This document shows, piece after piece, positions 6,709 through 47,701 of a DNA stretch of 64,000 bases (positions are counted from its first letter, which is position 1; the number at the start of each line of letters is the position of its first letter). The DNA is taken from assembly GCA_019915135.1 (NCBI GenBank), contig JAHLMK010000033.1:142923-206922 (forward strand). The letters are read 5' to 3'. A program made the translations under genes and the position numbers. Below the pieces are notes generated by a model that was given only the letters and a program-made list of their open reading frames with translations, searched no databases and was not told the origin of the DNA. Origin of the DNA: Strobilurus pachycystidiatus. Its lineage: Eukaryota > Basidiomycota > Agaricomycetes > Agaricales > Physalacriaceae.

Positions 6709-7332
6709 TTATTCTTTTTTTGGTTTTTTATCTTTGTGATTGTCATTATCAATCTCAAAAGAAGAATCTATATCTTCTCTTTGTCTTTTACTTGTAGGAT
6801 TTGCAGTGTTAGAGGTAGAAGCGGTAGAAGATTCTGAGGAAACATTAAAAGGATTAACATCGGATGGTTCAGGGTTTATGTTTTCTGATCCAGCATACCC
6901 CCAATTAGAAGAGTTATAATAATAATAAAAGCCAGCCTCTCCGAGTTCGCCAGTCACCTCTGAAGAAGAATTATTTGAAGTATTTTGACTATTCGTCTGG
7001 GTATTATTATGTTCCTCCCCTGTGGGAGGGATAGATATAGCCTCATCCATTTCAATATCTTCAGAACTACTATAACAGATATTTAAATTATATTTATTAT
7101 CTGTACCCATAGTTAAATTAGAATTATCTAAATCACAAATATAAAAAAAGAAATTTTCAGGACAAAAATAATAAAAAATACTGTCTATATTAAAAAAAAC
7201 TGAATTTTGAATTAAAAAAAAAATATTAAATTTAAAAATAATAAATCAAAAAATATTTCAAATGAGAGGAGACAAATATATATATATATATATTTTTTTG
7301 TAATATATATAATAAAAATCTAAAACCTTCAT
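6709..7332 (-). CDS. orf207, membrane-anchored low-complexity protein
   Basis: Family unknown. In code 4 the frame is open from an ATG at 7332 to a TAA at 6709 (207 codons, with UGA at 7260 and 7248 read as Trp). In the standard code only the last 133 codons would be seen. About residues 10-55 are strongly hydrophobic and aromatic (IWNIFWFIIFKFNIFF), so one or two membrane segments are likely. The rest is Ser/Asn/Thr/Glu-rich and ends in a Lys-rich tail (DNDNHKDKKPKKE). A hydrophobic start with a polar low-complexity tail is also the design of the ORF at 24794-26188. Whether it is expressed is unknown; the long open frame in A/T-rich DNA argues that it is real. Confidence 0.55.
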
Positions 7333-7587
7333 ATAAAATATAATTGAACTATTATATAGTTTTTTTTTAATAATTAACTTAAAGAAAAAAATTAAAAATA
7401 TTAAATTAAAAATTAATATTAATAGTAATAGTCAAATAGTCACTCCAAATTGTGACATTGGTGATAACACTAAAAAAACCTTGTTCATGTTTATGATAAG
7501 CTCGGAAATATAGTATAATTTTTTTGTTATATGTAGGTTAGTTTGTGTAGATTAGTACTACCCTATATATAAAAAGAGAAGTGATTT

Positions 7588-8395: not shown

Positions 8396-8469
8396 TAAGA
8401 CCTAAAGGACTCGAACCTTTATTTGATCCATTATGAGCGAATGACATTATCCTGTTATGCTAAAGTCTC
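8396..8469 (-). tRNA. trnM: tRNA-Met(CAU)
   Basis: Acceptor GAGACTT/AGGTCTT, D stem GCAT/ATGT, anticodon loop CTCATAA (CAT), T arm AAAGG/CCTTT with loop TTCGAGT. It is one of two tRNA-Met genes in the window; which is the initiator cannot be told from sequence alone. Confidence 0.9.
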
Positions 8470-8502
8470 TACATTTTCAATTATGCTAAGGTCACTTATT
8501 AA

Positions 8503-8722
8503 ATTAAAATTAAAATTAAAATTAAAATTAAAATTAAAATTAAAATTAAAATTAATTTAAATTAAAATTAATTAAAATATAAAAAAAAAAAGAATATTAT
8601 TCTTTTCTTTTAATCTTTTTTTGTTTGTAAAAAATATAAATATTATTCTTTTAAAAATTTAATTAAAAATTAAAAATTAAAAATTAAAAATTAAAAATTA
8701 AAAATTAAAAATTAAAAATTAA
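8503..8722. repeat. A/T tandem repeats (AAAATT)n and (ATTAAAA)n
   Basis: Two short-period arrays at 8503-8560 and about 8660-8722 are separated by an A/T hairpin. They carry no gene. Confidence 0.8.
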
Positions 8723-9302
8723 ATAAGTACGAAAAACTAATTAATATAGGGAAAGGGTGAATGTAAAAAAAAAAATCATTTTATACTTTTTTAATCAACT
8801 GCCTCTGCTTTTGAGATCCAGCCGTACTTTAAATCCCTGCGTATGCGTGAATAAAAAAGCACCCTTCCGTATCTTGCCGTTTCATCCCTCCAAATAAAAA
8901 CTCCGCGTTAGCGCGTTAGCGCGTTAGCACGTTAGCCCTCACATTAGGGGGATGGGCTACACCGCCCCCTCCCCTCCCCCCTACTCCCATAAATGGGTGG
9001 GAGGGGAGTGCCGGCAGGGGTGGAGAGGGCGGCTTCTCCCATTATGCCCGGCCGTTCCAGTACCAGTTCCAGTACCAGTTCCAGTACCAGTTCCAGTTCC
9101 CGGTATCAGTTCCAGTACCAGTTCAACAAATACGGGTTGCGCAGAAGAGGGGTGGGACCCCATTATCGGGAAGGAAAAAAGGGGTGTGCGCCTCCTCCGT
9201 CGCAATGGGCGGCAGGAAAAATTAAATTTTATGACGTATTACGTATAAAAATATAAATTTTAGACTGAAATTGTTAAGAGTGTAAAAAAATTAATATAAA
9301 TA
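8723..9302. other. Spacer downstream of rps3 with G/C clusters and a 12-nt tandem repeat
   Basis: It contains GCGTTAGC repeats near 8905-8932, G/C clusters at 8963-9010, and about six copies of a 12-nt AGTTCCAGTACC-like unit at 9053-9123. Short frames here in both directions come from the repeats. It would be the 3' region of the rps3 transcript. Confidence 0.6.
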
Positions 9303-12300
9303 TTAATATTTATTAAAAAAACTTTGTGAAGAATTAATAGAGATAGAAAAAATACCTCTTTTATTTTTAGTTGTAAATCTAGCAAAATCTTTATAATTTA
9401 ATTTACTATGAGCATACACCCCTTTGTTAAAAAATTTAATAGTTTTTCTAGGTCTAATTTTATCTCTTAATAATCTACCGGCAATTTTAATATTCATACC
9501 AGTTAAGAAAGCAGGTAAAATAAAATCTTTATTATTTTTACCTTTATTATTAAAACTACTAATTCCAAATTTATTTTTAACAATATTTTTAAAAATAGCG
9601 TTATTAAATAATTTTTGAACAAATCTAATAACTTTAACTTTATTAACAAATAAAGCAAAAAAGTTCACTAAAATATTAGAATTACTATAAGGATAATGAA
9701 CTCTAATTAAATTTAATTCCACTGGTTTATTAAAAAACTTACTTAAAATAAAACATAAAGCTTTAAATTTAGCAGGATAAATTTTAGTTAAAGGCTTATT
9801 AACTAATTTATTATAATAAAATTTAATAAACTTTTTTTTAAATTTATAATTTCTAAAAATTTTTTTATTTCTTTTTAACTCTTTAATTTCATTAAAATTA
9901 AGTTTTTTATTCAGATTATCTCCAATATTCGTAACTGTCTTAAAATAAGATTTATTCTTATTTATAAATTTAATTTTCCTTAATAATAACATATTAATAC
10001 CAATCAAATTAGGAGATCTCTTAAATTTAGCCTTTCTACGTCTAAGTGATGGTGAAGAAATTAACAATTTATTAAATAAACTTTTATACCTAAAAAAATT
10101 TTTATATTTATTATTTAAAAATTTCTTTTCCGGCGAAACGGTCACGGAAGGGGTGTGTGTATTTCCGTGATGGTAATTATGATTAGGTTTAATATTAAGA
10201 TTAGGTTTAGGATTAACCTTAAGATTAGGATTAGTATTATTATAATAATTAAGACGTGAATTTTGACCTATACCTCTACCTCTACCTCTTTTGTACGTGT
10301 TTTTATTCTTCCTATGTGACTGTGAACCTTTAACTAGTCACCTTCCCCCAAAACTATTAGAACGTCGACTCGTCTTTTTCTTTTTTTTTTGAGTGTTCGA
10401 AAGTGACTTCCGTAAAGGTCTATTAAATTTTAAAAAAGCAGGACTAATCAAAAAATAAAATAAATGAATAATAATTTTATCCGTTTTAAAACTAAAAACA
10501 GGTTTACTAATTAAACAAGACATAGATTTAAAAGCAAAAAATAAAATATCATAAATTTCTTTAATTAATTTATTTCTATTATGATTAAAATTAAAAGCAA
10601 TAAATCTATTAAAATAAAGAAATGTACCTTGAATATCTAAATTATAAATACTCATAAATTTTAAAAATCGATGTATTAAGATTTGTTGTTTTCTAACAGT
10701 AACAGTCTTTCTAATTGTAGTATTTATAGGTGAAAGTGAATTTTTAAAATTTAATGTTAATTTATTATGTATTTTTTTATTATTATTAATCTTCAATTTA
10801 AAATTATTTAACTTAAATTTATTAAACCGTTTATGATTATTAATATTCAATTTAAAATTATTTGACTTAAATTTATTAAACCGTTTATGATTATAAATAT
10901 TTTTTTTTCCATCTCCACCTCCACGAACAGAAAGGAAGGATGTAGCAACAAAAAGACGTAAACGTTTATCCAAGTAGAATTTGATAATTTGACATTTAGT
11001 ATTAATTTTGTTAATATTTCACTGATACTGAGACTGAAACAAATATTTAATAATAAATTTAGACTTATTAATATTAAAATTCATCTTTTCTGTATCTCCC
11101 TCATAAATATAACTAGGGCAATAATTTTCCAAATATAAATTATTGATATAATTAATAACCCTTGGCTTATTAATAAAATTTTTTCAATAATATTTAAAAT
11201 TATTAAACTTATTAGTATCATTAGACTTAATAATAATTTTATTATTCTTTTTAAAAATAATCACATTATTTTTTTTTAAAGTAAAAATAGAAGTTAAATT
11301 AGAAGTTCCACGTATAAATTTATTAATTTTATTATGATAATTAATTACATTATTTTTTTTATTTTTACGTAAAATATTCTTTTTATACGTAGAATTAATA
11401 AAAAAATAATCTTTTTTTTCATTTACATTTTCATTAACGTGTACATTAAGTAAACAATTAAAAAAATTATAACAATTATTGTTTCTTTTACTTAAGATAT
11501 TTTGTTTTATTAAGGATAAGTGTCTTTTTTTATTAATGTTTTTAAAATTATTATTAACATCCAAATTAAAATTATTCTTATTAGTAATAATAAGACGTGG
11601 ATAAATCATATTAATAGGATTAGAAAAATAATTATTAATAATAAAATTATTATTATTATTAAAACTTATATTTTTTTGACGTAATTCTAAATTTAAATTA
11701 AATAAATTTTTAAAAGTTTCATTAATTTTCATTTTATTTTCCTCTATATTATTATTAAATTTAAAAAATTTATTATTTTTTTCCCCTCCCCATAATAGGG
11801 TGGACTGGGCTGGGTTGTTATTACTAATAGTAGCTGTTAAGGATGCCGTTGCCGTGCCGGTAGCATTAAAATAAAATTTAAAATTATTTGTAATAACAAA
11901 ATAATTAAATAATCATTGATTAATATAATTATTAAAAAAATAATTAAAAAGATAAATATCAAAATTAGAATCCAAATCTATTTTATTTTCTTTATTTTTA
12001 TCAGTATTACTATTAATATAAGTATTATTATTAATATTAGTATTACTATTAATATTAGTATTATTATTATTATTATTAATATTATTATTATTATTATTAT
12101 AATTATTATTAATATTATTATTCTTTAAATTATTATTAATATTAAAATTAATGTTTTTATTAATCTTATTAAATTTATTAATTATTGGATTTAAAACTTC
12201 TTCCACAAAAAGAATAAATTGATTTAATTTAAAAATTTTAAATTTAAAAAAATATAATTGTTTGATATCTTTATTATTAAAACTAAATCATTTACTTATT

Positions 12301-15300
12301 ACTTTTAATTGTCTTTTAGAATAAATTTTTTCCATAAAATTTAAATATCATAAAGAATTTAAATTATAATTATTTTTACTATTAATAAGATTGTTGTTGA
12401 GGTTCAGAAAGGATTTAAATTTAGATTTTAATTTATTAGTTTTATTATAATTACGCCTTACATTAATATTTAATAAATTGTTAAGTTTTTTAATATTATT
12501 TTTTCTTCATTTATTATTTAATTTAAAATTTAATTCATTGAAAGTAACATTGTGTTTTCTAATTCAATAATACATTCGACTAATTTTTTTTGTTGGTCTC
12601 AATTGAAATAAATGTAATGCGGCATTTAATTTCCCTTTATAATTAAAGTTATTATTATTATTTAAATTATTATTAATATTAGAATTTTTAAAACTTAAAC
12701 TTTTAAAGTATTCCCTTAAATTATAATTATAGTTTGTCTTAATATTTTTATTTTTTTCAGTACGTGGTACGTGGATTTTTTTATTTTTATTATTATTAAT
12801 ATTTAAATTTAAACTTAAAATTTTTGGAGTCATTTGTATTAAATTTTTTTGTTTTTGATTTGGATTATTACGTGGATTTTTTGTTTTTTTTTTAATTGAG
12901 AGGATTGGTAATTTTGAAATAATATGAAAATTAACATTAGAATTATTCTTAGTCTGAGTCTTAGTTAAAGTATTAGTCTTAGTATTATTTATAGTTTTAG
13001 TCTTAGTCTTAGTCTGAGTATTAGTCTTAGATTTAGTCTTATTCTTAGTCTTAGTTTTATTATTAGCATTCACAATAGAATTAACATTAAACGCTTTAAC
13101 AATAGCATTAGAATTATAATAACAAATAAAATTAGAATAAGAATTAGCAAACAAAAATCCTGGTAAATAAAATTTAGAAATAGGTAAATTAAAATTATTA
13201 ATTTTAATATTTTTTTTATTTTTATATAAATATTTAAAAAAACTATAAATTTTTTTAATCCTTAAGTGTAAAATGGCTGCCAATTTAATATTAAATTGAT
13301 TTTTTTTATTTTTTACGTGAAATGAAAATAGTTGTTTGTTTGTTGTTTTGTTTGTAAACTTTTTAACCGTTTCGTTCTCGTCATGTGAATTGTTATCGGT
13401 TTTCACCGTAAGTATATTTTGATTATGATAAAAAGATAAAAAGTTATTATTTAAATCTTTAATAGTGTTCAAAGATAAAAAAGCAAATAATTTTCAATTT
13501 TTAGGTTTAAATAAAATTAAATAAACTTTATCTTTATTATTAAGACTATTATTAAATGAAAAAAAAATATTTAAATTAAATTTATTAATTAAAATTAAAA
13601 AAAACAAGAAATTTTTCATTTTTATAATGTTTGTATTTTTATCTCAAAAAGATATTTTTTTTAAAAGGTTATAAAGATGTAAATTAAGTTTATATAATTT
13701 TAAATTATTAATAACATTTGTTGTTGGTCCCTTCTTTTTATTTTTATTAATAAAAAAAATTAAATCAAAATTTTTTGATTTTAATTTTGATTTAACCTTA
13801 TGATTAATAAAAGAAGATTTATATTTAGAAGACACTTTAACATTTAAGTTTTTGTTATAATAAAATAATTTCTGATTATAATTATTTAAAAAATTTAAAT
13901 TAATATTACTTAAATATTTATTTTTATCTTTATCAGATTTTTTTAATAAATTTTTTTTAAACATTTGTCCTATTTGATTTAAATTATTATTTTTTAATAT
14001 TTCTTTATTTAAATTTAATTCAATATTTTTTTTTAATCTTAATTTTAAATTAAATAATCGGGAATTTAAAGCTATTTTTCCCTTATTAACATTTGTACGT
14101 GAAATTTCTTTATCTTTCAAATTATTATTATTAATTACTGTTGTGTATTTGTTGACTATTTTTTTTTTTAATTTATTATGTTTAATATTTGTATTAATTT
14201 TTATTTTTGAAAATTTAATTTTTTTTGGTTTGTTTCGTTTGTCCATTAATCAAAAAATGGTTGCCAATTTAAGTTTAATTTTTTGTAGTTTGAGTGGTAA
14301 CAAAAGATTTCCTCCAGGAGCCGTGGCAGTTAGAATATACCGAGGTTCAGATTTGAGATTAGGACTCAACCACGTAGAAGGAAATGATAGTTTACCTCCC
14401 TTAATATTATTCTTAATAAACCCAGGTTTTTTTTTATTTTTATTAAGATTAAGGAAGGGGAGAATATTTGTATTTATGGGTAACCTAGAAGAAGTTGTCC
14501 TTGAATTTAATTTTGAAATTAAAGATGAGTTATTATAAAAATTTAAAGTTGAATATTTATGTTTACTATTAGTATGACATGTTTTATTGATATTAATAAT
14601 ATTATTAAACTTATTAATCTTATTAATCAAATTTAAAATAATAAAAAGTCACATGTTTTTTTTATTAGTAATAGGAAGAAATCAATTTATAATTTTGTTA
14701 TGAATTTCAGATTTATTTAGTTTATTAATCATATTTGCATATTTTAATTTTTTAATTATTTTCATTATCAAATATTTACGTTTAGAAGATTGAGATTGAG
14801 AATAAGATAATAGTGATATGAAATTTTTTATACTAGATTTTTGAGGATAATCTCTTAATTCATATGGAATTCTAATTTTATGTTTATATTTTTCATTTTT
14901 ATTAGTATGTGAAAAAAAAAATAAAAATTTAACGTGAATATTTCAAGTATTTAAATACTTGAAATATTCGTCGAGTGGTATAACATTACGAATATAAAGA
15001 ATTCTTAGATACGATTTTAACTTTAACTCATTTAAAAAATGTTTTTTTCGGTAATTTTTTATTTTAATAAATTTAGGTAAATATTTAAATCTTCGTTTAC
15101 GTCGACCTCCTATTCCTAAAGGACCTCTACCTAATAAAGATCGACTTAATTTTAATTTATTTACGTGGATTTTTTGACTTTTACGTATATTTTGATTTAT
15201 CATTGAATGTGATCAAGAAGAAAAAGACACACTATTTGTTAAAGTAGATGCAGTAGAAGTTGAAGAAGAAGTAGAAGTAGAAATAGAAGTAGAAGTAAAA

Positions 15301-15401
15301 TATTTCTTATCTATCATAGGTAATTTTATATCTTCAGAAACATGCTTATTACTAATTAAAGTAAGATATTGTTTGTTTATGTTTAATTTATATAATTTCA
15401 T
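9303..15401 (-). CDS. rps3: Giant mitochondrial ribosomal protein S3 (about 2032 aa)
   Basis: Mitochondrial small-subunit protein uS3 (var1/S3 family), needed for small-subunit assembly. The frame is open from ATG at 15401 (a TAA sits immediately upstream) to TAA at 9303: 2032 codons with many UGA-Trp codons. I checked the spacers 10146-10337, 10974-11183, 11733-11912, 12207-12563 and 14631-14942 codon by codon and found no TAA or TAG. Family identity comes from the C-terminus: IRVHYPYSNSNIL (about residue 1895), then LTGMNIKIAGRLLRDKIRPR (about 1965-1985) and ARFTTKNKRGIFS. The N-terminal part has a Ser/Thr run (residues 36-62) and a basic GIGGRRKRRFKYLP stretch. The middle is Asn/Lys/Ile-rich with an Asn-only-like run near residues 1080-1130, and an in-frame G/C cluster lies at 11782-11870. 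Known fungal homologues are roughly 300-600 aa, so this is several-fold oversized. It is free-standing, not inside an rnl intron. Confidence 0.9.
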
Positions 15402-16426
15402 TTATTTTAATTTATTTTATTTTATTATTTATATTTTAGTTATTATTATTCTTCTATAAGAGTTATTAATATAATCTAATTTAATTTAATTTAATTTAAT
15501 TTAATTTAATTAATTTAATTAATTTTAGGATACAACCAAGATATCTTGTCAAGGTGGATTTTATAACAGATTATTATATAATAATATCTACTTAATATTT
15601 AATAATTAATATTTAATATTTTTTCACTGTGTATCTGTACCTCCCCCCCCCTCCTACCCATTTATGGGTGTAGGGGGGGGGAGGGGAGTGCCGGCAGCCC
15701 ACCCATTTATGGGGGTAGTTTTTATTTGGCCGGGAGAAGGGGAGTAGTGGTTTTTTTATTTATCCCAATATTAATTTAATTAAAAAAGAATTAAAGTATA
15801 ACTGCTTAACTTGAAAAGAATAAATTTAAGGTAAATATATGATAGATTAAAAAAGTTATTTTTGTATATTAAATTTTAAAATTAATTGTGAAATTTTTAT
15901 TTTTTAATGTACAAAAAATATCTATTATTATAGTACATTAAAAAATTTTTAAAATGACAACTATTTATATTATAACTAATTAAATATAAAAATTGTAATT
16001 TAGCTGTTAATACTTTATATTATTTGATATTTTTATAGATATAATTAATACAGTATTTAATAAATAAGTTAATTAGATAAAAATTAACAATAAAAAACTA
16101 ATTAACCATCTATGACATTAATCGTTGTTTGTTTAATTTATTAATTTATGGTTACTTATACCTAGGCTGTACAACGTAGACAATGAAATTTTTTTCTTTA
16201 CATAGATTTTTATTATTTATACGTGGAAAATTTTAAATTTTTTTCCCTTACCATTCCTCCATATTATTATATATAATTATATTTATATTATATTTATAGA
16301 AGTATGGATAGGGTTGTCAACGAAGGGAGTATGAAAAGTTATCTTCCACCATAAAAAAATAAATTTATTAAATTTAGTCTGTTATTATTAATAAAAAATG
16401 AGGACTAATACAGGTAAATTTAAATT
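15402..16426. other. Spacer upstream of rps3
   Basis: No gene is seen. It has a TTTAA tandem at about 15479-15520 and a G/C cluster with CCCATTTATGGG hairpins at 15641-15735. A stem formed by TATTTTTTAATGTACA and its near-complement lies at 15898-15940. Any rps3 promoter should lie here, but I recognise no promoter motif. Confidence 0.5.
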
Positions 16427-16499
16427 TGAAGACATCTGGGCTCGAACCAGAACCCTTTTTATTAAAAGTAAAACACTCTACCTATCGAGTTCTGTCTCC
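16427..16499 (-). tRNA. trnK: tRNA-Lys(UUU)
   Basis: Acceptor GGAGACA/TGTCTTC, D arm ACTC/GAGT, anticodon stem TTTTA/TAAAA with loop CTTTTAA (TTT), T arm TCTGG/CCAGA with loop TTCGAGC. Confidence 0.95.
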
Positions 16500-17164
16500 A
16501 ATAATAATCATAAATTTGGCCAATTTATAAAATAACTAAAACCTTACATTAAACCCTTCCAAATTGTTTTATTTAACCCCCCCCCCCTACTCCCATAAAT
16601 GGGAGTAGGGGAGGAAAATTCCACTGAGAAGGGCCCTCAAAAAAAGGCCTTCCCATTTGACATGTATAAATATTAAGGGCCGGAAAAAAGGGGTGGCTCT
16701 TTTTTTAGATTAATTAACGCAGGGAGGGTGGGTGTGCGGGAGCGATACACTAATGTTAGGGAAAAAATAAAATAACTACACCCTAAATTAAAAAAATCCT
16801 GCCAAATCTTGGCCCTTTTAATTAAATTTAATTACACCACTGCACCCATTTAAGAGTGTACGGAAGACCTTCCACGTGATAAAGTTACAAAGCCAAAAAT
16901 AAAATTCACCACGTAATTAAAACCCCTAGTTTATATTTAAGATTAAAATTTAAGTTAAAAAAGGCCATTAATGAAAAAAAGTTAAAAGTTAACGTAGACC
17001 CTTACAAAAAAAAAGGATGGTATTTATACTGCACTACCAAATATTAATAAAAAAAAAATTTTTTTTTACCACAGTAAGTGGAAGTAAAAGTGACAGTGCT
17101 AGTGATTTTTTTGGTTGGATGCTGCGATCCGCAGCAGGAAAGGGACAACAAAGTCAACTAAAAA
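16500..17164. other. Spacer with G/C cluster
   Basis: A G/C cluster with a CCCATAAATGGG hairpin sits at 16578-16615. The rest is A/T-rich with ACGTGG/CCACGT pairs near 16873 and 16908. No gene is seen. Confidence 0.5.
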
Positions 17165-24793: not shown

Positions 24794-26188
24794 TTATTTA
24801 TTTTTTTTATTTATTTTTATTTTCTTAAACTGTCATTCTTGGTTATGAATTGCATTTGCTTCTGCCTTATAACTAAATAATGATTGTCTTAAATTTTTCT
24901 TGGCTTGCCGATAATCATAGGATGATCTTAGTTTATCTTCAGCTTCTACCAATTCCAGTAAATCTTGTTTTTCTGAGGCTCTAACCACTTTGCCAACTTT
25001 ATTTTTAAGAGTGTTAGAATTAGCATTTAAATTAGTGATAACTTTATTATAATTTTTTTTTTCATTATATTCTCAATTTAATAATTTTTCTTTAAAATTT
25101 TCATAGCTTTCAATAGCTTGTTTTTTGTCATTATTATTAGAGTTCTTATCCAAACAAATATTTTGAGCTTTTTGAAATTCTACCTTTAATTTAGCCATAA
25201 TATTAGAGGGTACATTCGGATTTTGTCTCTCTCTTAAATCCGATTTTAAACCCTTTCTTAATTGACTTCTTTGGTTATATAAATAGTTAGCTAGATCTTT
25301 ATTTGTATCTTCTGAACCCATACCTTTTAGTTCAGCATCTATAGCCTTTTCAACCTTTTTTAAATGATCTTTACCCGTACTCATATTTAAACTAGTAGAA
25401 CTGACATTAACAGATTGAGGCAAAGAAGTATTACTTACGTTGCTATATAAAGATAAAGATTTGTCAGATTGCCCATCATTTTGATTAGGGAACTCCATTT
25501 GCACTTCACTGCCACTTTGAGTACTTAAATAACCACTGCTAGGAGTATCTAAACTAGAAGGGTTTAGAGGATGTGGATCAAAATCTTCATCAAAATAAGG
25601 GTTAATTTGATTTTTTAAAAAAGTTCTACGTGGCTGAGCTATATTTAGTTCACTTTGAGAGATTGGAGCTGAATGACTTTCGATTAAAGCTGATTGACTT
25701 TGAGTGTTATGAGAAATTTCTGGTTGTTGAATATTCGTAGAATTTTGATTAATATTTTGATTTTGATTTTGATTTTGACTATTATTTAATTCATATTCCT
25801 CTCTTTCTCTTAGTTGGAAAATTTCTTCTCTAACTTCCTTTATTAAAGTTTTAGAAGGTTTAAATTTAAAACAACAAAATATAGATGATTGCAATTGAAA
25901 AATTCTATTTGAAAAAATATTTTTAATTAAGTTAAAAATTCAAATAATACCGTTAAAAAAACTAGCAATTCACCTTAAAAAATAAATACAAGAACTAATA
26001 ATTCCTCTAAAAAATTTAAAAAAATTAAAAATAAAGCTAAAGTCAATTCCAATAAAACAATGGCTAAAAAAAGAAAAAATATCATTTAATGAAAAAATTT
26101 TATTAAAGACCTTAAAAACTGAAACAAAAAACTTAAATCATACGGATTTCTTATAATATTTATATTTATTAATACTAAAATTGATAAT
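24794..26188 (-). CDS. orf465, membrane N-terminus plus Ser/Asn/Gln-rich tail (rnl intron 10)
   Basis: The frame is open from the codon after the TAA at 26189 down to TAA at 24794 (up to 464 residues; start not defined, a TTG exists at 25894). The N-terminal 100 residues are Phe/Ile-rich membrane segments (FFSHCFIGIDFSFIFNFFKF). Then come a basic segment, a Gln/Asn repeat (NQNQNQNINQN) and a long Ser-rich linker. The C-terminus is helical and charged, with coiled-coil character (LKKVEKAIDAELKG, YRQAKKNLRQSL). No nuclease motif. Unknown; resembles orf207 in design only. Confidence 0.6.
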
Positions 26189-26665
26189 TTTTAACACATT
26201 AACATATGTAAAAATATTAAAACATTTCCTTATTGTTGTTGTTGTTTTCGTTTTCAGCAACAAAAAAAAATAGTTTATCTTTTTGATAATAAATTTAAAT
26301 ATAGTTATTATAGAATCTTTTTTTAAATAAATTTCAAAATAAAAAGATCTATTAATAGAAAAATATGAAAATAGTTCTTTTTGTAATCATTGTTTTACGT
26401 GGAGTTCTATAAATAAAAGGAGAATTAATCCTAGTAGTAATTTTATAACTTTATGTAAAAAAACTGGAGCTAGTTTAACCACAAATACTAAAAAAGTAAA
26501 ATTAAAAGCTAAATAAGGATAAATTAAATTACAAAATTTTTGTAAAAAATTTAAAAATTTATATGAGTAATAGCGTCGTATCAAGTGAGAAGTTAAAAAG
26601 TTGTTGTAAAGAAGATTCAGAATTAGTGTAACCATGATTATGTAACCTCTACGTAATTTTTTCAT
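26189..26665 (-). CDS. orf158, very hydrophobic protein (rnl intron 10)
   Basis: 158 codons, ATG at 26665 to TAA at 26189, one UGA-Trp. It is almost entirely membrane-like (MVTLILNLLYNNFL, KLLLGLILLLFIEL, NYFFLLL). It is in the same frame as the following ORF, separated only by this one TAA. So the two could be halves of one gene broken by a nonsense mutation, or two tandem genes. Family unknown. Confidence 0.5.
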
Positions 26666-26752
26666 AATTGTGTATAGTGGTTTACTTTTCTTTAAATAAT
26701 TATTTTATTAAATATAAAGATTATAAAATGCTTAACCTCAAAAATATTAAAA

Positions 26753-26872: not shown

Positions 26873-27895
26873 TTAACCTTCTCAATCTCAATCATCGAAA
26901 TTATTATCATCATGAGCATCCTTTTTTTTTTCATTAGTATTTTTATTACTATCTGTGGGTTTAGAAAAATCCGGATTGGCCTTAGCCACTTCTGCGAGAA
27001 TACCTGCACCTGCTTCATCTCTATGTTGATCTACACCAGATTCATTTCTATTTTTAAATTCATGATTAAATGCATTGCTGTTAGATCTTCCTGCTAGTAC
27101 TTTGACTTCATAGGGACTAAAAGAGGTTTCAGTACTCTCAATATCGGGAAAATTTTCCTTTAATTGAGGTTTTAATGAGTTTCAAGTCTTTAAAAATTTT
27201 AAAGTATCTTGAATTCTATCTGTTTCTGTCATTTTTATTTCTTGAAGACGATATAAATGACTACTAACTTCACCTGCTAATTCGTCAAAAAGGATTCCAG
27301 CAGATCTTCCATATCTTTCTGTAACAGAATTAAACATATCTTCAAGTTCTTCATCCGATAGTTCAAAAAAAAAGGTCCGATAATCAGCTAAGCTAGTGAT
27401 ATGTCCATCACTTAATAAAACATGATTAAATATATTCAAGATTTCAGTATGAGCCTCCCAAAGAGTAGTCTTTTCTTCAAATTCTGCTAATTGTTCAGTG
27501 TTTACTGTTTCTTGTTCAATATTAGTTTGTTCTTGATTTGTTTCTTTTTTTTTTCTTCTTAAAACTCCTGTAGATTCATGAAAATTTTCTTTTGTTTTAT
27601 TAATAATATTTTTAAATCATCCATCCCTCGCTGAACTAGTAGAAAATTGTTTAGGTTTTCCTAATGAAAATAAAATAGGAACTGTAAACAATAATGTTAC
27701 ATGATATAATCCCCCATATATTCCAATTCCAGAAGTGACAGTAAACGTCAAATCAATAGTATTATAAATCAAAATACTAGAAGATATTAAAATTATGGTC
27801 GATACTCGAATGTAAAAGGTATAATTAAGATTTATTAGATTGAAGGCTTTACAAGTTAAAAATTTTAATGTATAATTGTTGAACATAAATTTCAT
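26873..27895 (-). CDS. orf340, membrane protein of unknown family (rnl intron 10)
   Basis: The ATG is the first three nucleotides of the intron and the frame stays open in code 4 to TAA at 26873 (340 codons). About residues 27-80 form two membrane helices (VSTIILISSSILIYN and GLYHVTLLFTVPILFSL). The rest is soluble and charged, with a coiled-coil-like Glu/Gln stretch and an alpha-helical ELSDEELEDMFNSVTERYGR segment. The tail is acidic (HDDNNFDDWDWEG). No LAGLIDADG, GIY-YIG, HNH or reverse-transcriptase motif is visible. Function unknown. The upstream exon is open in the same frame, so an exon-fused precursor is possible. Confidence 0.75.
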
Positions 27896-28274
27896 AGGTG
27901 CCAAACCACCGAGACAATGTGTACTCTCGTCGGTGATCAGCCTGTTATCCCTAGCGTCATAAAAATTTATTAAATCATAAATTTAAAGAAACTTTTATGG
28001 ACTATATCATCAACTATTTAATATGCTTAAATAGTGCTTTACGTGTAGTCTCTGGAACTAATATTTTAGTTTGCGAATTAATTTATTGTAACATAATTAG
28101 ATATTTTATAATATTCAATATTAAACCTAATTCTTTAAAATCTTCTCGACATATAGTAAATGTTCGAATTTTATTTTTATTAAAACCTTAATAATATAAA
28201 ATAAGGTCACGCCTTAATATAAGAGATTTTTCATGTAATAAAAATTAATCTTTCAATTAGATCACTAATTTAAA

Positions 28275-44890: not shown

Positions 44891-45631
44891 TTATTTGTCT
44901 TTGTCTTTGCCTCGAGATTTAACCTCTTTTTCATAGTCGTCATTAAGTTTTTTCATAAATTCCAGTTTTTCTGAAGGAGTCAAGTTTGTATAGCTATTAA
45001 TCATTTCTGTAACACTTTCTTTAGGAAGAACTTTTACAGTTGGGTTAGAAGCAACAGTAGTATCTATAACTTGTATAATCTTTTCTTTAGGATTTGTTGT
45101 TGGACCAAAAATTGATTTATACATTTCTCCCAGAAATGGTACAAAAACAGGTTCACGACCAGCAGCCTGTAATACTTGATCATAAGCAGCCCCACCACCT
45201 ATTAATCCAGCACCACCACCATCTACACCACAACCAATTTTAGCACAATAGATTGTTTTAGCAATCATTGTAGCATACCTGTCTAAAGGTGAATTTCTCA
45301 CTTCAAAATCTTTTTTTTTAAACATTATTGTATAAATTCCATAAAAAATTTTAATGATTCAAATTATTATCATTTGTGTAATTTGAATAGCACCGATTAT
45401 AATTATGAATAAATGAAAATTATCAGGTAAATATAAATAAATCTTAGTTATAACCATTACTAAACAAATTCCACCTATTACACGAAAAATTCTAAAAAAA
45501 ATATGTTTATAAATTTTATCCACCTTAACAGGTAATGTTGAAATACTATAACCCTTTTTTATTCCTTTAAAAAAAGATGACCGATCTAATTTATTTTTAA
45601 AATTAGTTTTAAATTTTTCTATGATTTTCAT
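44891..45631 (-). CDS. orf246, membrane protein with Gly-rich motif, unknown family
   Basis: 246 codons in code 4 from ATG at 45631 to TAA at 44891. An in-frame UGA-Trp at 45357-45359 joins what the standard code shows as two frames. Two membrane helices (IFRVIGGICLVMVITKIYLYL and FHLFIIIIGAIQITQMIIIW, residues about 45-95) are followed by a basic loop. Next is a conserved-looking Gly-rich segment (CGVDGGGAGLIGGGAAYD) and a charged helical C-terminus. No function recognised. Well-formed codon use suggests a real gene. Confidence 0.7.
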
Positions 45632-46572
45632 ATTGTTTTATAAATAAAAAAAAGAGTCTAATTTTTTTGTTTTAAATTAGTGTAACCACTAAAATATAAC
45701 AAATACACTAAAAAATAGCGAAACCTATTTTAATAAAATTAACCACCTTTTACTCTAAAAATTACAGTGGTTGACTATATCTAAAAAAAGATATAATAAA
45801 AAAGGCTTATTCTCTTCTCTAAAATAGAACTCCTGTAAAGGCTACGAGGGGAGAAGTAATAAACTACGGAGTGTTTAGAAGCATGTAGGGATTTTGAGTA
45901 CATACATCTATTCTTTTATTTGTAAAAATAAAAATAAAAATATTTTTTAATTTTTATTTTTTATTTAAATACATCTTTTTTTACGAACTTTACACTGGCT
46001 GGAGTAAAATAAGACATATTTTTTATACATTTATTATACACTTATTATACATTTATTAGAATAATTATCAGATCTAGCATACCTAAATTATATTTTAGTG
46101 GAGTAAGAGGGATATTCTATTTTAATTTAAATTTTTAATTGAAACTAAACTATAAAAACCGTAAATTGCCTAGCGCTTTTGTTTAAGTCGGCGTATCTTC
46201 CTTAAATTATAAGTGGTTACTTATTATACTATGTCATAGCTAATATTATTTAAAGATAAGGATAGGCTATATTTCAACCTTTTAAATTTTGCGAGGTCTA
46301 AGAATACAATAATAGTTGGAGTCATATAGGTTTTATCCTCCCCTTTCCCAAACTATAAATAAGTTCACTAAATTTACATAAAGGTTAAAAAAAAGGATAT
46401 TAGAGTCCTTAACAAAAGAGTAAATCTGAGTAAATCTGAGTAAATCTGAGTAATACTAGGTTTTTGTTATGAAGAGATATTTATATACTTTCTTTTCGAA
46501 CTCATAAAGAAACAGATCTTTTATGGCCCTTTAAACACTTCGCAACCTCTATGTAAAACAAAGCAGGGTTGA
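45632..46572. other. Spacer between orf357 and orf246
   Basis: A/T-rich, with three GTAAATCTGA decamers at 46421-46452 and a GACTATATCT element near 45772 that resembles an isolated group I S element. No gene is seen. Confidence 0.5.
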
Positions 46573-47646
46573 CTATTCGGAGGGCTTGTTAATATTGGTA
46601 TTCTGAGAGTGATTTTTTATTCTAGCTCTAGCTTTTTCTTCGGCCTCAAGTTCTTCAGATATATCCAGGTTAAATCTTTTTGTTAATTTTGTGGAGTTCA
46701 CTTTAATCTCTTTATCTAGGTCTTCACAACTAATAAATCTTTTATCAAGAGGGTGATATTTTAAATCAAAAGCTAATAAGGGTTGATGGAAATTTTTGTC
46801 ATTTAAAATATGGATTTCAGGACTTATACTCGCCATTTTTATTAATCTATCTAGTAAGGAAATATCCACTTCAATATGAACTATTTTGGCAAATATTACG
46901 GCTATTGCTACAGGATTACTTTTACTAATAATATATAATAATTTATTGAATAAGTCGTAATATTTGAGTACTTGTGAGAATCTTATTTTTTCTCTTATTA
47001 ATCAAATTTTTTTATTTTTAGAAAAGTTTTCAATCAAATTTTTTTTGTGCATAGTGTTACTTAACCTAAAAGATTCTTGTGTAAGGTTATGAGAATCTAT
47101 CAAACCTTCGGTTCCTAGTATAAATCTGGCCATATTAAGGTGAAGTGTTGAGAAGTTTTGACGTTTAACAACAGAACCACCACTGAGGGTTATACCTATT
47201 GATCTAAATTGAGCCACCAGCCCCTTCCAATTACAGTTTATAAAAATAAAAATAGTTTTATTTAAATTGTTTCTATTAGCAAATATGTGCCTTTCAACAA
47301 ATCAAGGGGTGAAAAAATCATGATCGTGTACTTTTACGGAAGTTGAAAAGGATGAAGTTTGGTTACCAAAAAAAACATCGCTGTCCTTCTTCTCAAATTC
47401 TGTTTCTTTAAGATAATCACGGTATTTCTTTTCCCCTTTTACGATCCAAATGATTTTTGTTTCTCTTCCTAATCGCAATTTGTCGTCCAGGGGAAAATTT
47501 AATTCATTTAAACGATTAAAAGGTGCTATATTATGTAGGTAAGTATGGAAGATTGTACCGATTAAAGATCTTGGGGCATATTCCTTTTTTTTTTCACTTG
47601 AAAGAGCAAATACAGCGATAAGATTAAGCGTTTTTAAGTGACTCAT
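46573..47646 (-). CDS. orf357 downstream of cox1, unknown family
   Basis: 357 codons in code 4, ATG at 47646 to TAG at 46573; UGA-Trp at 47302 and 47002 link three sub-frames, and I checked both joins for stops. It starts about 55 nt after the cox1 stop on the same strand, so it is probably cotranscribed. Composition is that of a soluble protein with helical, charged segments (LDDKLRLGRETKIIWIVKG, EDLDKEIKVNSTKLTKRF) and an Arg/Glu-rich tail. No endonuclease, polymerase or respiratory-chain signature seen. Confidence 0.75.
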
Positions 47647-47701
47647 TAGATTTTTATTTTTAATTTGAATTTGGAAAGGGGTGTTGTATTATTTTATGTT
47701 A

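Follow-up and report, generated by a model that had tools for sequence, protein, structure and literature searches.

The stretch of DNA analysed here, referred to as the window, is 64,000 nucleotides long and spans positions 142923-206922 of contig JAHLMK010000033.1 (C33) in the 51.8-Mb, 61-contig genome of the fungus Strobilurus pachycystidiatus. C33 measures 206,922 bp, and because its two ends (1-26353 and 180575-206922) overlap for 26.35 kb at 99.94% identity, we read it as a mitogenome that closes into a circle of about 180.57 kb. The contig is a large fungal mitogenome, with a GC content of 27.6%, rRNA and tRNA genes of mitochondrial type, group I and group II introns, and an open reading frame (ORF) for a LAGLIDADG protein. 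Its minus strand holds 39 of the 40 longest stop-to-stop frames, and the longest open frame of all, with 2032 codons compared to 938 for the runner-up, is that of rps3, the gene for the mitochondrial ribosomal protein uS3 (uS3m/VAR1).

The rps3 frame begins with an ATG at window position 15401 and ends with a TAA at 9303 on the minus strand. A stop codon directly precedes the ATG, so this is the full stop-to-stop frame, and it contains no TAA or TAG before its end in genetic code 4, under which 15 TGA codons are read as Trp. An earlier interpretation made from the letters alone (the sequence-only reading) had given these limits and the unbroken frame exactly, with no strand stated. The gene is free-standing between a tRNA-Lys and a tRNA-Met gene, and the locus is organized as follows.

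9303-15401, minus strand: rps3 open frame, 2032 codons, code 4, ATG to TAA (ORF listing, stop counts)
10734-15401, minus strand: N-terminal extension, residues 1-1556, Asn/Lys-rich, without credible domain match (profile searches, complexity)
10416-10733, minus strand: longest stretch outside low complexity, residues 1557-1662, probable uS3m N-domain (complexity; resemblance to a fungal uS3m consensus)
9828-10415, minus strand: basic, variable spacer separating the uS3 parts, residues 1663-1858 (composition, complexity)
9336-9827, minus strand: mitochondrial uS3/VAR1 C-terminal domain, residues 1859-2022 (PF05316)
16426-16500, minus strand: tRNA-Lys, upstream neighbour
8396-8469, minus strand: tRNA-Met, downstream neighbour

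Judged from its sequence, the gene is a genuine rps3 of extreme form, which would encode an abnormally long uS3m. Residues 1859-2022 match the VAR1 profile PF05316 above its curated cut-off, with E values of 2.1e-21 for a 453-residue piece and 3.9e-25 for a 168-residue piece, in agreement with the S3 C-terminus recognized in the sequence-only reading. The full 2032-residue query returned no matches in Pfam, NCBIfam, or PDB. A VAR1 profile search of the 51.8-Mb genome reported a single match, on C33, and uS3m is thus encoded once, in mitochondrial DNA. All ten matches of the frame to genome DNA, in a search that skips simple repeats, fall on the same contig, and those elsewhere on it are weak and span just about 50-135 columns at 70-86% identity, with E values from 8e-9 to 6e-4. 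At the protein level, tblastn against the mitogenome found no match beyond the gene itself except its own palindrome (E 0.84). Residues 1557-1662 form the longest stretch of the frame outside low complexity, and residues 1595-1654 within them align with an approximate fungal uS3m consensus at E 1.5e-9. This stretch is probably the N-terminal domain of fungal uS3m, although Pfam and PDB gave no support for residues 1557-1662 in this role.

Length is a typical rather than a defining property of this family. Yeast VAR1, for example, has around 400 codons. In published work, rps3 spans 1,140 to 1,545 bp across 20 fungi in one study and 1,131 to 1,584 bp in Hypocreales, encodes 490 amino acids in Stemphylium, and reaches 2,526 bp in Erysiphe necator, where cDNA has verified an intronless gene (PMC8260586). 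The family range of 300-600 amino acids assumed in the sequence-only reading is therefore slightly too narrow at its upper end, and the 2032 codons found here exceed the 1,131-2,526 bp spanned by these genes. In the open-licence literature, where lengths are often confined to tables and supplements, we found no rps3 near 2032 codons, and we do not claim that this is the longest known.

For the whole frame about 176 stop codons are expected, and none is present before the final TAA. Sets of 100 order-1 Markov sequences matched in composition were simulated for the two parts of the frame. For residues 1-1560, which contain no in-frame stops, they gave a mean of 135, a minimum of 107, and a longest open run of 122 codons; in the rest of the frame the simulated mean is 40.5 and the minimum 26. 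The five other frames over the same region carry 58 to 469 TAA or TAG codons. The earlier argument that a chance open frame is not credible thus withstands simulation. It is also very improbable that the frame is an assembly artefact in which a homopolymer indel joins two truly separate frames. The frame does run unbroken through 39 homopolymers of 7 or more, and only indels distinguish the two versions of the contig's overlapping ends (17 gap columns, mostly at homopolymers, and 0 mismatches in 26,359 columns). Moreover, no second copy checks the assembly of rps3, because the frame lies outside the 26-kb duplicated ends. However, such errors should break long frames far more often than they create them, and an error of this kind would explain one joint, with about a thousand codons or more still open on one side.

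A lack of stops might conceivably result from selection on the C-terminal protein alone, and three tests that are independent of stop codons were therefore applied. The extension read in frame has a T/(A+T) of 0.641 at fourfold sites, compared to 0.379 and 0.487 when the same dinucleotides are read in the other two frames; the value is 0.619 in other mitochondrial ORFs and 0.771 in the uS3 part. The extension favours T at these sites even though its strand is richer in A than in T (0.458 versus 0.369; T/(A+T) 0.446). When tandem arrays are masked, the T:A ratio is 143:101 (0.586) in frame compared to 63:97 in one of the two other frames (0.394; P 1.7e-4). In the second test, the periods of tandem arrays scoring at least 50 are divisible by three in 10 of 10 cases within the frame and in 62 of 129 elsewhere in the mitogenome (P 0.0015), and at a score of at least 30 the corresponding counts are 30 of 35 and 199 of 440 (P 2.3e-6). 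These counts are of non-redundant arrays with a period above 3, and arrays crossing the frame ends (1 and 2) are omitted from both groups. In the third, codon-position asymmetry exceeds that of all 200 stop-free order-2 simulations in nine of ten windows of 200 codons, with values (0.024-0.110) that fall within the span of 67 windows from other ORFs (0.005-0.166, median 0.038). Because fourfold sites, repeat periods, and codon-position asymmetry agree, there is good evidence that the extension has been translated over a long time under coding constraint. The sequence-only reading had called the frame either under selection or very recent; these signals favour selection, and recency is the weaker option.

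The same signals in nine of ten windows also bear on whether the frame conceals one intron or several that are open by chance, which we regard as highly unlikely. The mitogenome is rich in ORFs and introns, as this explanation would need. No group I or group II model matches positions 8480-16400, even at E<=5, but this negative is weak, as Rfam recognized just a single group I intron, along with three group II domains, in 184,000 bases. Because Rfam finds so few introns in this mitogenome, the coding signals and the lack of an endonuclease domain are the stronger points against a hidden intron. No LAGLIDADG or GIY-YIG homing endonuclease domain was detected in ten overlapping pieces covering residues 1-1680, whereas a control ORF in the same window matched LAGLIDADG_1 at 8.9e-27. 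The cDNA-verified rps3 of E. necator likewise lacks introns (PMC8260586).

Searches of residues 1 to about 1556 against Pfam, as two large pieces and as ten overlapping pieces extending to residue 1680, revealed no credible domain. The weak matches in the extension (the best being CDC37_M at E 0.0073, MFA1_2 at 0.076, and YppF at 0.18) are below cut-offs and were taken as chance. Sequence searches of PDB with the ORF or its pieces gave no matches, or chance matches at E 0.24 and 0.53. A fusion of uS4 to uS3 was considered for residues 98-200, where one model contains a locally confident helix pair, and was rejected: there was no S4 match and no fold match at E<=0.001, and the presence in the nuclear genome, on contig C16, of a uS4m-like gene that encodes an S4 domain and that we take to resemble Nam9 also counts against it.

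The lack of a domain of assigned function would suit another explanation, in which cleavage or an internal start yields a short protein that acts as uS3m, and the upstream part is separate or discarded. In-frame ATG codons at window positions 11084 and 10655 could begin products of 593 amino acids (Met1440) and 450 amino acids (Met1583), for instance, which would be in keeping with the sizes of Hypocreales and E. necator genes given above. Nonetheless, all three thirds of the extension show the fourfold signal (0.607, 0.656, and 0.681), and the stretch from the first ATG to the core is free of stops, a continuity that a separate upstream gene could do without. We consider a short working product unlikely, though not negligibly so.

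We favour, at a probability of roughly 60%, the reading that this is the only rps3 of the genome, with a normal uS3m core behind an in-frame extension of about 1,550 residues that grew by slippage and insertion. Several features of the extension are in keeping with such growth. Low complexity covers 68% of residues 1-1545, compared to 8% of the other minus-strand ORFs of >=250 codons. Local tripeptide recurrence in the extension is 1.64 times that of block-shuffled sequence (z 6.3), and 1.11 times in the uS3 core (z 0.3). The following features lie within the extension or the frame.

11992-12171, minus strand: hexamer array of 180 bp, in frame, Asn-rich tract (TRF period 6, 30 copies)
12943-13059, minus strand: hexamer array of 117 bp, in frame, Thr-Lys tract (TRF period 6, 19.5 copies)
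10776-10901, minus strand: 54-bp (18-codon) tandem repeat, 2.3 copies, 94% matches (TRF)
14936-14969, no strand assigned: perfect palindrome of 34 bp, within the frame (palindrome search)
11774-11876, minus strand: GC-rich patch (43%) coding NATGTATASLTATISNNNPAQSTLLWGG, a possible in-frame GC cluster (GC content)
14291-14400, minus strand: GC-rich patch (44%) in the extension (GC content)

The GC content of the whole extension is 17%, and its maximum over 60 nt is 0.517, compared to at most 0.433 in 200 codon shuffles. Perfect palindromes of 34-44 bp, differing in sequence, occur at five sites in the mitogenome (C33:113050, 147253, 47907, 151070, and 157858), one of them in the rps3 frame. 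Among the matches listed, the longest exact words common to the extension and other places are 16-17 nt, and some of these are AT-rich. An ACGT/CCACGT DNA motif across the frame was also considered and dropped, its count being near expectation given neighbouring bases (19 versus 16.2 in residues 1-1560). As an observation by eye on the flanks of the gene, GC-rich hairpin-like clusters stand on both sides of rps3 in AT-rich DNA, at 8870-9200 and 15630-15740.

In the favoured reading, the uS3m core would consist of about residues 1557-1662 and 1859-2032, lying in the same frame behind the Asn/Lys-rich extension. The extension may have grown via in-frame replication slippage, tandem duplication, and the insertion of short elements, a mode of growth already known in rps3/VAR1 genes, though small in scale there. 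It would be kept open because an upstream stop or frameshift would abolish the sole uS3m. Slippage and short insertions, with only frame-preserving events surviving ahead of an essential gene, could produce the repeats, the GC peak, and the palindrome. The core presumably does the usual work of uS3m in the small subunit.

Several observations weigh against this reading. After masking, the fourfold signal differs from that of frame 2 (70:76, 0.479) at just P 0.046, and two of the eight fourfold boxes are reversed in the extension (14 T to 16 A for CCN, 5 to 15 for GGN). Codons 401-600 are not above the asymmetry null, which 21 of 200 simulations reached there, and tripeptide recurrence is raised in other ORFs too (1.33 times, z 4.9, over the first 20,000 residues). 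AlphaFold2 models of single sequences have low confidence (mean pLDDT 42.9 and 54.6), and the single sequence of residues 1545-2032 gave no usable fold. Scans of IMG/VR, with queries from rps3 and from one other mitochondrial ORF, and of GTDB contigs found no relative of the extension, a weak negative given few short patterns and few fungi. In Morchella crassipes, rps3 is reported to be the sole conserved mitochondrial gene without definite expression by RNA-seq, and therefore expression of rps3 is not to be assumed (PMC7014384). Finally, Arg is encoded by AGR in 18 of 43 codons of residues 1-1560, compared to 25 of 31 in the uS3 part and 560 of 826 in other ORFs (P about 0.001 each).

This choice of Arg codons hints at a different origin for at least part of the extension. 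The extension might be an unrelated free-standing ORF that was fused in frame with rps3 and gained its repeats later, and the mitogenome does contain several ORFs without a Pfam match above cut-off as well as a DNA polymerase piece of plasmid type. However, the extension has no domain match, tblastn with the protein finds nothing else in the mitogenome apart from its palindrome, and its DNA matches elsewhere are the short and weak ones described above, all on the mitochondrial contig. A fusion of this kind is quite improbable on balance.

Growth of rps3 by in-frame additions has smaller counterparts. Yeast rps3/VAR1 is of the same PF05316 family, is AT-rich and hypervariable in size, and shifts in size by in-frame insertions that include GC clusters (PMC4464245). 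Those insertions are small, whereas the extension in S. pachycystidiatus, seen in one genome, has about 1,550 codons. An in-frame microsatellite is described in the rps3 of Sphaeronaemella, and such microsatellites, cox1 pieces, and endonuclease fusions have been reviewed (PMC5626475). The frames of Ophiostoma, P. nodorum, and O. sinensis rps3 are likewise enlarged by inserts, endonuclease fusions, or foreign pieces, but unlike the endonuclease-fused genes the present one carries no detected endonuclease domain (PMC5626475, PMC5529405). E. necator rps3 is similarly over-long and intronless in a large, intron-rich mitogenome, and its expression has been verified; it differs in having 841 codons plus stop and in lying inside an rnl intron (PMC8260586). 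Pyronema rps3 is also free-standing, in a 191-kb mitogenome of a filamentous ascomycete that also contains a gene for a family B DNA polymerase and truncated copies of genes, and the paper states no length for it and mentions no giant frame (PMC4866847). In the amoeba Balamuthia mandrillaris, the mitochondrial rps3 frame again extends much beyond S3 homology and includes an in-frame stretch whose length varies between strains, but its total is 1,290-1,425 bp and the authors propose an intron or intergenic stretch (PMC4665321).

Were the complete protein incorporated into the mitoribosome, its extension would emerge on the side of the small subunit where mRNA enters. A fungal mitoribosome with extensions in this region is that of Neurospora crassa. 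In it, extensions of uS3m and uS5m, which mS35 and mS46 hold in place, build an extended structure, and the authors suggest that this is an mRNA loading platform ahead of the channel entry (PMC7560712). The whole 2032-residue protein could conceivably reside in the mitoribosome of S. pachycystidiatus, with its basic, Asn-rich arm serving as a platform at the channel entry that docks or condenses mRNA and holds long AU-rich messages close to the small subunit. If so, this mitoribosomal protein would far exceed any uS3 that we found described, and we regard the proposal as unlikely. Residues 1-1560 contain 20.7% Asn, compared to 11-12% in simulations, along with 18.7% Lys plus Arg and 3.5% Asp plus Glu. 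Among 200 stop-free Markov simulations at each of orders 1, 2, and 3, acidic content was as low in 98, 85, and 127, and basic content as high in 53, 21, and 17. Charge was accordingly dropped as a sign of selection, since there is at most a weak excess of Lys plus Arg over stop-free, composition-matched simulations. Its charge lies near the expectation from base composition, and low complexity and the lack of a credible domain match likewise argue against a special function. We see no sign that selection has given the arm an activity, and we read the extension as a tolerated, frame-filtered expansion.

The suggestion in the sequence-only reading that the added protein is rRNA-like filler fares poorly on this count and on another. 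The small subunit (SSU) rRNA appears full length: RF00177 matches it in one piece of 901 nt and another of 1006 nt, the latter overlapping a group II intron domain-5 match. Because this rRNA does not look shortened, its replacement by the extension is spoken against. A group II intron apparently divides the rns gene itself (C33:139465-142749), with the 3ˊ-piece match overlapping the intron domain-5 model.

Elsewhere in the window, a piece of a family B DNA polymerase of organellar/viral type lies at 558-1409 on the minus strand (PF03175, E 6.6e-23) and may be of plasmid origin. Four ORFs of 248-636 amino acids on the minus strand, at 24794-26704, 44891-45637, 46573-47688, and 6709-7551, have no Pfam match over cut-off. 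The same holds for a minus-strand ORF at 26873-27982, in which 176 bp (C33:170614-170789) are 97.7% identical to C33:73886-74061; we take this segment to be probably a duplicated nad2 exon.

The mechanism proposed for rps3 is of a known kind in an extreme form, giving a frame more than twice as long as the longest case that we found in print (E. necator, 2,526 bp). Because the full-length query gave no Pfam match, annotation that expects 300-600 amino acids may miss or truncate a giant rps3 of this type. Here, a presumably essential ribosomal protein gene is still open at about fourfold its usual length. It may thus show, as a natural experiment, what amount of unfolded polypeptide a ribosome can tolerate and how a reading frame filters slippage, and the giant rps3 would offer a test of function for the extensions of uS3 at the mRNA entry.

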